From positions 395,297-459,296 of the forward strand of contig NEED01000023.1 of assembly GCA_002110465.1 (NCBI GenBank): a stretch of DNA of 64,000 nt, written 5' to 3'. Below are positions 32,651 to 35,808 of the stretch, piece after piece; positions within the stretch are counted from its first letter, which is position 1, and each line of letters begins with the position of its first letter. This DNA comes from an unicellular cyanobacterium SU2. Its GTDB lineage: Bacteria; Cyanobacteriota; Cyanobacteriia; Cyanobacteriales; Microcystaceae. The position numbers and the translations under genes are program-made. The notes under the pieces are model-generated. The model was not told the origin of the DNA and ran no database searches. It was given only the letters and a program-made list of their open reading frames with translations.

Positions 32651-32718
32651 GTTGTTAGATAAGTTCAGAAAGTTGCTTACAAATTAATTCACTTTCAGCA
32701 CTTCAAAATTACGTTGCT

Positions 32719-33837
32719 ATGCTCCAAAGATTGTATGTACATAACTTTAGATGTCTGGAGAATTTTGACTTCTCTCTTAAGGAAATGTCATCTGCACTGT
32801 TAATTGGGAAAAATGGTGTAGGTAAATCAACTATTGCTAGTGCATTAGAATTACTTCAGAGTATTGGTCGAGGTATTAATAGACTTAGTCAGCTACAAGA
32901 AAATAAGCTGATTGGTTCTAAAGATTTTTCTCTTGGTAGATCTAAGGTTCCGATCCGATTTGAAATAGAAGTATTACTTAAAGACAACTTATACAAGTAT
33001 ACTCTTGCATTAGACTTACCAGAGAACTTTAGAGAGCTTAGAGTATCTGAAGAACAATTGTTAGTTGAAGGAGAGCCAATTTATAATAGACAAGAAGCAC
33101 AAGTTCTCCTCACTTCACAAAATCGTGAAGCTAAGTTTTTAGTAGATTGGCATCTTATAGCTCTTCCAGTGATTCAGGAACAATCAGATACTGATCCGCT
33201 TCATATTTTTAGGACTTGGCTGGCACGAATGATCATTTTAGCTCCAATTCCAAGTCTAATAACGGGAGAATCTAACGGTGAAACCCTTGAACCTAAGCGA
33301 GATGGTTCAAACTTTGGAGAATGGTTTTCTGGATTACTTAGTCGCTATCCTGCTGCATACAAGGAAGTTGATCGGTATCTTGAATCAGTAATGCCGGATC
33401 TTACTGATATCCAAAATGAATTGATCGGCAAAAATTTCAAAAGTATGATTGTTAGGTTTGAAAAAAATAAGACAAACCTCAATGTTGACTTTCAAGATTT
33501 ATCTGATGGGGAAAAATGCTTTTTTCTTTGTGCTATTGTTATAGCTGCTAATCAATACTATGGTCCACTTTTTTGTTTTTGGGATGAACCAGATAGTCAT
33601 CTTTCTTTATCAGAAGTTGGACATTTTATTATGTCATTACGTCGCTCGTTTGAGAATGGTGGACAGCTTTTAGTAACCTCACACAATGAAGAAGCAATCC
33701 GAAAATTTTCTAGTGAGAAAACTTTTTTACTAGATCGTAAAAGTCATCTAGAACCGACTTTAATCCGACTCCTCAGTGAAGTATCTATCGAAGGCGATCT
33801 CATCGAAAACTTGATTCTTGGTGATGCAGAATTATGA
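32719..33837 (+). CDS. AAA/ABC-like ATPase (OLD/RecF-type), partner of the TOPRIM-like gene
   Basis: A 372-residue SMC/RecF-like ATPase without a long coiled coil. Walker A is GKNGVGKST (residues 30-38) after LQRLYVHNFRCLENFDFSL, typical of OLD- and RecF-like proteins. The signature is LSDGEK near 262. Walker B is FCFWDEPDSHLSL with Asp289/Glu290, and the switch histidine is in TSHNEEA near 322. It has no fused TOPRIM nuclease. The downstream gene overlaps by 4 nt (ATGA), so the two proteins are translationally coupled. There is no HIP1 site in the pair. A role in defence is inferred from family resemblance only. Confidence 0.82.
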   Translation: MLQRLYVHNFRCLENFDFSLKEMSSALLIGKNGVGKSTIASALELLQSIGRGINRLSQLQENKLIGSKDFSLGRSKVPIRFEIEVLLKDNLYKYTLALDLPENFRELRVSEEQLLVEGEPIYNRQEAQVLLTSQNREAKFLVDWHLIALPVIQEQSDTDPLHIFRTWLARMIILAPIPSLITGESNGETLEPKRDGSNFGEWFSGLLSRYPAAYKEVDRYLESVMPDLTDIQNELIGKNFKSMIVRFEKNKTNLNVDFQDLSDGEKCFFLCAIVIAANQYYGPLFCFWDEPDSHLSLSEVGHFIMSLRRSFENGGQLLVTSHNEEAIRKFSSEKTFLLDRKSHLEPTLIRLLSEVSIEGDLIENLILGDAEL

Positions 33838-34325
33838 GTGTAAACAATTATTCACCCCATCTTGTTGTATTACCTGAAGATAAAGCTAATTCAGACATCG
33901 CAAACGCATTTTTACTTCATCCCCAAATCGATCTACGATCAACTCAAGTTTTACCCTATATCGGTGGTTGGGGTGCAGTGGTAAAGCATTTTACGGACAA
34001 GCACATATCTAAAATGCGACAGTATTCTGAAAGAAGAATTGTATTATTAATTGATTTTGATGAAGAACAAAATCGATGTGATTATGTAAAACGAGAGATT
34101 CCAGAAGATCTAATAGATAGAGTATTTGTTTTGGGTGTTTTCTCTGAACCCGAAGAATTAAGAAATATAACTAGACAGAGTTATGAAAAGATTGGAAAAT
34201 CTCTAGCAAATGATTGTGCTGAAAATACCGATAAGCTATGGAAACACGATCTTCTTAAACATAATGAAGCTGAATTAAAGCGTATAATTTCTTCTATTAA
34301 ACCATTTCTTTTTAATGAAAGTTAG
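33834..34325 (+). CDS. small TOPRIM-like protein coupled to the ATPase
   Basis: A 163-residue protein I cannot assign to a named family. Its layout fits a minimal TOPRIM fold: strand plus acid LVVLPEDKANSD (Glu15), IGGWGAVVKHF, strand RRIVLLIDFDEEQ with a DxD pair (Asp74, Asp76), then RVFVLGVFSEPEELRN (Glu105/107/108), like the acidic segment of OLD-family nucleases. The C-terminal 50 residues are helical. It overlaps the ATPase stop by 4 nt. The pair looks like a split OLD-type system, resembling in layout ATPase/TOPRIM defence modules such as PARIS; nuclease activity is inference. Confidence 0.6.
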   Translation: MSVNNYSPHLVVLPEDKANSDIANAFLLHPQIDLRSTQVLPYIGGWGAVVKHFTDKHISKMRQYSERRIVLLIDFDEEQNRCDYVKREIPEDLIDRVFVLGVFSEPEELRNITRQSYEKIGKSLANDCAENTDKLWKHDLLKHNEAELKRIISSIKPFLFNES

Positions 34326-34419
34326 ATAATGATTTTTATCTGATAAACATCTATATTATGACTAAAGCTTAATTAATCATTATTTTTGTGTCAATCGTTT
34401 AACTTAGGACTTAGGAACT

Positions 34420-35808
34420 ATGACATTAACCACTGACTCCAAATCACCTCAAAAATATTCCTTGCCTCAAGGGTTAAGTTATTACGGAATTGGAGAGGCA
34501 CTCAAACTAATTTTTAATCCGTTACCGAATCTAGAAAAATATCGCGATCGCTATGGGGATATTTATTATTCTCCTAAATTTTTTGCATTTAATCCCTTTA
34601 TTGTTATTGGAAATTCTCAGGGGGTAGAAGAATTATTTAATCTTGATCCTGATCTCTTAGAATGCGGAACGTCTAATGCTTCCTTAAAAACCTTATTAGG
34701 AGATCAATCAATTTTACAATTAGATGGAACTCCGCATCAACAACGCCGCAAATTATTAATGCCATCTTTTCATGGACAACGGTTACAAAGTTATGGAAAA
34801 ATTATCACTGAAGTTACGCAAAATATCATCAATAGCTGGCAAAAATATTATGTTTTTTCTATGAGAAACGTAACTCAATAAATAACACTTAAGGTGATTC
34901 TAAGAGCCGTTTTCGGTATAAATAAAGGAGTTTACTATAATGAATTAGGAAAACGGTTTAGTCAGTTTCTTGATTTATTTAATTCTCCTATATATACTAC
35001 GACTTTATTTTTACCTTTCTTGCAAAAGAATTTAGGGAAATGGAGTCCTTGGGGAAATTTCAAATATCAACAGCAAGCCATTTACACGCTTTTAGAACAA
35101 GAAATTGAACAACGAAAAGAAGTAAAAAATGGAGAAGATATTCTAAGTTTATTGTTATCAGCAACTGATGAAGAAGGACATCATCTAAGTAAAGCAGAAA
35201 TCATGGATGAGTTAGTAACTTTATTGTTTGCTGGTCATGAAACGACTGCATCATCATTAGCTTGGGCATTTTATTGGGTGCATTCTCAACCTGAAGTTTA
35301 TCATAATTTGATGGATGAATTAGCTACTATTAATCCTGAAACCGACCCGACAGAAATTGCTAAACTTCCCTATTTAAGTGCCGTTGTTTCTGAAAGTTTA
35401 CGAATTTATCCCAGTGTTATTTTTGCTTTTGGTCGAACTTTAAAAACGCCTTTAGAGTTTATGGGTTATGCTTTAGAAAAAGGATTGACTTTAGTGCCTT
35501 CTATTTATTTAGTTCATCATCACCCCGATATCTACCCTGATTCTAAAAAATTTAAACCAGAACGCTTTTTGGAACGTCAATTTTCTCCCTATGAATTCAT
35601 CCCATTTGCAGGAAGTAACCGCCGTTGTTTAGGGTATGCTTTAGCCTTGTACGAAATGAAATTAGTCCTAGCAACGGTGTTAAAACAAGTTGACTTAACT
35701 TTAGCTAATCCCCGTCCTATTTTACCTGTAAGAAGAGGCTTTACTCTGAGTCCTTCAGGTGGGGTAAAAATGAAAATAGCTAATAAATATCAATTTATTC
35801 ACCGATAA
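34420..35808 (+). pseudogene. cytochrome P450 (CYP110-like) interrupted by an in-frame stop
   Basis: A single 462-codon P450 frame is broken only by TAA at 34879-34881. Both sides are in the same frame and join smoothly as SMRNVTQ-stop-ITLKVILRAVFG, where family members have a glutamate (GAA). All P450 marks survive: I-helix AGHETTASSLAW, ExxR as ESLRIYP, and the haem loop PFAGSNRRCLGYAL with the cysteine ligand. A GTG at 34894 could start a separate C-terminal product, but that would lack the substrate-entry region. It ends in a 14-bp overlap with the convergent pmbA-like gene. The substrate is unknown. Confidence 0.85.

Follow-up and report, generated by a model that had tools for sequence, protein, structure and literature searches.

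A two-gene cassette of an ABC ATPase and a predicted minimal TOPRIM-fold protein, apparently horizontally spread and probably a conflict module

What is the function of a small two-gene cassette that lies beside ordinary metabolic genes in the unicellular cyanobacterium SU2? In the window, by which we mean the whole 64,000-nucleotide stretch of DNA that was analysed, ORFs for a 372-aa ATPase and a 163-aa protein follow each other on the + strand between ald and a P450 gene. An earlier note on this DNA had read them as a split OLD-type ATPase/TOPRIM module with a minimal effector, serving in anti-phage defence. Both ORFs and their ATGA overlap are present as that note described. The features used below are:

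32651..34419, no strand: interval between ald (end 32650) and the P450 gene (start 34420) that holds the pair, from congener comparison
32719..33837, +: gene for the ABC-type (RecF/OLD/SMC-like, Pfam AAA_21) ATPase, 372 aa, from the ORF, Pfam and a 71-homologue alignment
32806..32832, +: Walker A GKNGVGKST, residues 30-38, from the sequence and conserved in 71 homologues
33499..33516, +: ABC signature LSDGEK, residues 261-266, from the sequence and the homologue alignment
33583..33600, +: Walker B and catalytic Glu, DEPDSH, residues 289-294, with D289 and E290 invariant
33682..33684, +: H-loop histidine H322 (in TSHNEEA), invariant in 71 sequences
33834..33837, +: ATGA start/stop overlap, 4 nt, the same in 69 of 78 homologous pairs
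33834..34325, +: gene for the predicted minimal TOPRIM-fold protein, 163 aa, the proposed effector, from the ORF, conservation and a model
33876..33878, +: E15, proposed TOPRIM catalytic/metal-binding Glu after strand 1 (75/76 homologues; model)
34053..34061, +: D74-x-D76, proposed TOPRIM metal-binding DxD after strand 3 (76/76 and 75/76; model)
34149..34154, +: P106-E107, conserved acidic position after strand 4 (75/76 and 72/76)

A scan for promoters and terminators gave a signal equal to that of shuffled sequences.

The upstream protein matched the Pfam families AAA_21 (1.4e-21) and SMC_N (1.7e-14). The OLD/RecF-like motifs pointed out earlier are all present, and the key residues K36, E265, D289, E290 and H322 were unchanged in all 71 aligned homologues. 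Among PADLOC models, AbiLi was matched best (2e-23); HEC-01A matched at 3.7e-21 and PtuA at 1.3e-16, and the ATPase of retron Ec83 matched the window ATPase at 8.4e-9. Mean column identity within the cyanobacterial set was 85%, and identity to the window copy ranged from 47 to 82% across all loci. By these measures the ATPase is unusually conserved, more than expected of a fast-evolving sensor; such slow evolution could reflect either a trigger that is itself conserved or a function other than defence. The structure model of the ATPase was of low confidence (pLDDT 43.9), and the structural statements that follow cover the small protein alone.

An AlphaFold2 model of the small protein, built from 29 sequences, reached a pLDDT of 87.5 and a pTM of 0.83. 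It comprises strand 10-14, helix 17-26, strand 37-39, helix 46-63, strand 68-72, helix 80-87 and strand 97-100, with E15 following the first strand and D74-x-D76 the third. Such an order of strands and helices with a Glu and a DxD is the TOPRIM arrangement. When Foldseek candidates were realigned (VIA), the best structural match was the C-terminal TOPRIM domain (residues 369-525) of the Thermus OLD protein TsOLD (6p74), with a Z of 8.1 over 128 residues at 3.6 Å; the C-terminal regions of BpOLD and XccOLD gave Z values of 5.5-6.5. Lumazine synthases scored 6.9, and the margin of 6p74 over generic Rossmann-like folds is therefore modest. A Foldseek search of the model against PDB and BFVD returned nothing below 0.001; the lumazine synthases and septins in its list were set aside as generic Rossmann-like matches, with the DnaG TOPRIM listed among them.

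The TOPRIM assignment is nevertheless firm, because the residues expected of this fold are conserved: E15 was found in 75, D74 in 76 and D76 in 75 of the 76 small-protein homologues, and the acidic pattern that had been proposed by eye is thus not a chance one. The EPEE at residues 105-108, included in the same proposal, held in part: P106 (75/76) and E107 (72/76) are conserved, whereas position 105 is often N and position 108 is variable. Outside the triad, C128, W136 and N144 occur in 76/76 and H143 in 75/76 homologues (residues 128-144, window 34215-34265; homologues L031-L110), which suggests an additional interface or site. From model and alignment together, the small protein is predicted to be a minimal TOPRIM-fold protein; the predicted structure thus has the TOPRIM-like core that the earlier reading called for.

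To which family, then, does it belong? The small protein had no match in Pfam, including DUF4435 (PF14491), RloB (PF13707) and DUF4276 (PF14103), and nothing significant among NCBIfam, PHROGs or PDB sequences; for PF14491, none of 33 members matched at E<1. Below threshold, it matched the HEC-01B model PDLC04191 (0.0022, hmmscan), which 2 of the 33 members matched at E<1, and a PRK04017-like model (0.027). Profile-profile comparison (hhalign) with profiles built from cyanobacterial genomes gave E values that were all non-significant, 0.022 for DUF4276, 0.055 for the OLD TOPRIM and 0.31 for DUF4435, and in each of these alignments E15 and the DxD fell on the corresponding motifs. With RloB, which aligned over 18 columns only, and with an unrelated control, they did not. 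By these comparisons, the effector family lies outside the libraries searched and appears to be neither DUF4435 nor RloB, in line with the earlier statement that it is no close match to AriB/DUF4435 in length or motif spacing; AriB is known as a DUF4435 protein. The same pair may have been published before.

The combination of an ABC ATPase with a separate TOPRIM effector is itself of a known kind, shared by PARIS, AbiL/RloB and HEC-01/DUF4276, and examples of this defence or toxin architecture have been tested (PMC10440598, PMC12409363). PARIS ("class 4 OLD") likewise has adjacent, separate genes for the two proteins, but the frames of cyanobacterial DUF4435 matches are about 300 aa long, against 163 aa here. 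HEC-01, a PADLOC candidate system of an ATPase and a small DUF4276 protein, is alike in layout, with a small TOPRIM-like protein of some 200 aa encoded immediately after an ATPase of about 400 aa, and it supplies the best, still weak, profile matches given above; the small protein here is shorter, however, resembles it only around the DxD region and lacks a DUF4276 match, and the ATPase is equally close to the AbiLi and AAA_21 models. AbiL/RloB provides the best PADLOC match of the ATPase and is also bicistronic (PMC10440598), yet the effector here is without an RloB match. The closest structural match of the small protein is with class 1 OLD proteins (TsOLD, BpOLD, XccOLD), which likewise combine an ABC ATPase and a TOPRIM domain; in these and in GajA the two form one polypeptide, whereas all loci with both genes here have two ORFs and the TOPRIM part is minimal. 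Septu and retron PtuA proteins are related through the ATPase, but PtuB is an HNH nuclease (PMC10440598) and the partner here is TOPRIM-like. Gabija carries the helicase GajB beside GajA, in contrast to the present loci, where the only third genes that recur nearby do so by vertical descent within Microcoleus/Tychonema. The features of the OLD superfamily are found in the pair, namely ABC ATPase motifs and a linked TOPRIM domain with Glu and DxD, the latter not significant by sequence profile alone. A literature search, which covered no preprints and few subscription papers, found nothing on DUF4276 and HEC-01 mentioned only in passing.

Two related observations were made during these comparisons. 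In 38 of 149 cyanobacterial genomes, the PADLOC HEC-01B models match small proteins of roughly 200 aa (L136-L165). Immediately ahead of nearly every one lies an ORF of about 330-460 aa that often contains a Walker A motif, and the four longer small proteins tested all match DUF4276. Together these form a second, large family in which an ATPase is paired with a small TOPRIM-like protein. The window's own genome also encodes a separate, single-chain OLD-like protein (L170, G000:C22:70593-70775; 588-aa frame, OLD-like_TOPRIM 4.5e-6).

When 84,980 species genomes (GTDB) were scanned with an alignment, 80 loci were found; a scan of GTDB contigs with the single small protein gave no match, its exact peptide patterns being too specific. 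The ATPase gene lies directly upstream on the same strand in 78 of the 80 loci, 69 of them with the 4-nt overlap, and in the other two the small gene starts at a contig edge or close to one. The genes form an obligate pair. Together with the confident model and the OLD TOPRIM as top structural match, this invariant pairing supports the proposal of a split OLD-type module with a minimal effector. Some copies are disrupted: a complete small ORF stands beside an ATPase without its N-terminal part, including Walker A, in L046, L128 and L129, and beside a frameshifted ATPase in L108, while L130 and L133 have a full ATPase next to a small gene that is broken. Sequencing errors may account for individual cases, L108 for example. 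In 11 of 11 near pairs, dN/dS was below 1 for both genes, and both are under purifying selection.

The pair occurs in at least seven phyla (Cyanobacteriota, Chlorobiota, Thermodesulfobacteriota, Pseudomonadota, Acidobacteriota, Calditrichota and Armatimonadota) and in bins titled KSB1, Planctomycetota and Nealsonbacteria; some carriers are metagenome bins and possibly contaminated, but the carriers also include long contigs and isolates, among them Desulfamplus magnetovallimortis. It is patchy, being found in 67 of 391 genomes of the order (17%) and 2 of 50 of the family. In a concatenated tree the phyla interleave, 11 phylum changes being needed where 6 would be the minimum, and the copy of the window falls with Leptolyngbyaceae (support 99); this is a single tree made by a quick method, with several long branches. 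The ATPase of the window is 82% identical to that of Leptolyngbyaceae versus 74% to that of congener G036, in which the pair lies near groESL, far from ald, flanked by a PfpI-like gene without counterpart in the genus. Congener G038 has an ald-P450 junction of about 90 bp with no pair between, an absence that could reflect loss as well as lack of gain, and in four other congeners, also without the pair, ald adjoins a later gene of the window. A plasmid copy was found in Kovacikia. Taken together, the tree and the genome comparisons point to a horizontally spread, mobile pair. In a Desulfatirhabdium bin (L053), a copy is nested among cyanobacterial sequences, from recent transfer or bin contamination.

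Composition was left out as evidence of transfer, since the G+C of the two genes (35.7% and 32.7%) is close to the window mean (37.9%) and to the P450 gene (33.9%). The earlier note had also remarked that the pair lacks HIP1 sites. The absence is real, but as a sign of foreign origin it was rejected: with 47 sites per 64 kb, 1.3 are expected in the interval and the probability of none is about 0.27, so that about one in four such intervals would be empty by chance, and several HIP1-free gaps in the window are longer.

The neighbourhood of the pair was compared with genes further off. The 140 genes within two positions of the pair matched 70 PADLOC models at E 1e-12, versus 135 for the 140 genes lying 5-8 genes away in the same loci, so no defence-island enrichment was seen in this small sample and there is no guilt by association. 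The near matches are scattered (methyltransferases, PD-Lambda-2_A, single candidates), and the Pfam content of the neighbours is general and heterogeneous. The surroundings thus lend nothing to the defence role suggested earlier; nor do they share a pathway that would indicate housekeeping metabolism. A defence role is likely by analogy with known systems and from phyletic behaviour, not from context.

We favour the reading that the two genes form a conflict module, spread horizontally and working in the manner of PARIS or AbiL, to which we assign a probability of roughly 0.6. In PARIS, the ATPase AriA holds the TOPRIM protein AriB and releases it on a phage trigger, which leads to tRNA cleavage (PMC12409363). 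The PARIS ATPase sequesters its effector as a hexamer. By analogy, the present pair probably follows the scheme of known phage-defence modules made of an ATPase and a nuclease; complex formation and defence are parts that we infer, as are the nuclease activity, its substrate and the trigger. The ABC ATPase would act as sensor or regulator, di- or multimerising on ATP, and would hold or license the small TOPRIM protein until phage or foreign nucleic acid is encountered. The latter would then serve as a two-metal-ion phosphodiesterase using E15, D74 and D76, cleaving tRNA as AriB does or DNA as GajA does, and would stop phage growth, probably by abortive infection. Against the conflict-module reading count the conservation of the ATPase above that expected for a sensor, the modest structural margin over Rossmann-like folds, the absence of PADLOC enrichment beside the pair, and the lack of any copy in 50,697 phage records or in one pattern-based IMG/VR scan.

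That same ATPase conservation, together with the lack of a defence-island context, would suit a nuclease of DNA repair or genome maintenance, in which a RecF/Rad50-like ATPase loads the small TOPRIM nuclease at damaged DNA; an archaeal OLD protein, Cran1, has a published non-defence role in cell-cycle progression (PMC12796447). We regard this as rather unlikely, since a core repair function is ill-suited to the patchiness, the interleaved phyla, the empty site in a congener and the disrupted copies. The disrupted copies bear also on a classical toxin-antitoxin or addiction pair, in which an ATPase antitoxin would neutralise a TOPRIM toxin and the two together would maintain mobile DNA and not sense phage. 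The two-gene operon with 4-nt overlap, horizontal spread and plasmid copy are as such a pair would have them, and AAA antitoxins that neutralise TOPRIM_OLD toxins have been tested in E. coli (PMC10440598). However, either partner is disrupted alone in some loci, so that neither protein is obviously lethal by itself, the small ORF being intact beside a defective ATPase; this is mild evidence against a simple toxin-antitoxin pair and in favour of an effector that depends on its ATPase. As no mobility gene recurs beside the pair either, we consider the addiction pair improbable. Last, the strong conservation of C128, W136, H143 and N144 could be that of a non-catalytic TOPRIM-like regulator or adaptor, with the ATPase carrying the activity, but the conservation of E15, D74 and D76 equals that of any other residue. 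Without metal binding this is difficult to account for, and we regard such an adaptor as highly improbable.

Going beyond the conflict-module reading, the pair could, though we consider this doubtful, be a widespread and so far undescribed immune system of the ATPase-TOPRIM type. Its dedicated TOPRIM effector would be among the smallest, and its unusually conserved ATPase would recognise, in at least seven phyla, a phage or nucleic-acid feature that does not vary, and not a fast-changing trigger protein. The effector family has no Pfam model, no solved-structure relative by sequence and no significant NCBIfam, PADLOC or PHROGs model, yet the pair is carried by about one-sixth of the genomes in a large order of cyanobacteria and recurs across many further phyla. 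Should it be an immune system, surveys based on Pfam, NCBIfam, PADLOC and PHROGs overlook it, and it would offer a very small TOPRIM protein for studying how ATPase partners silence and release TOPRIM effectors. The conservation of the ATPase could expose what such sensors recognise, or reveal a non-defence role for split OLD proteins.

Two minor features were noted at the flanks of the pair. A 9-bp direct repeat, GTTAGATAA, occurs at 32654-32662, just after ald, and at 34321-34329, at the end of the pair; it is possibly a chance occurrence in AT-rich DNA or an insertion trace. The P450 gene directly downstream (34420-35808) is split into two ORFs in one frame by an in-frame TAA at 34879-34881, and the homologous P450 gene in congener G038 (L220) is open throughout.
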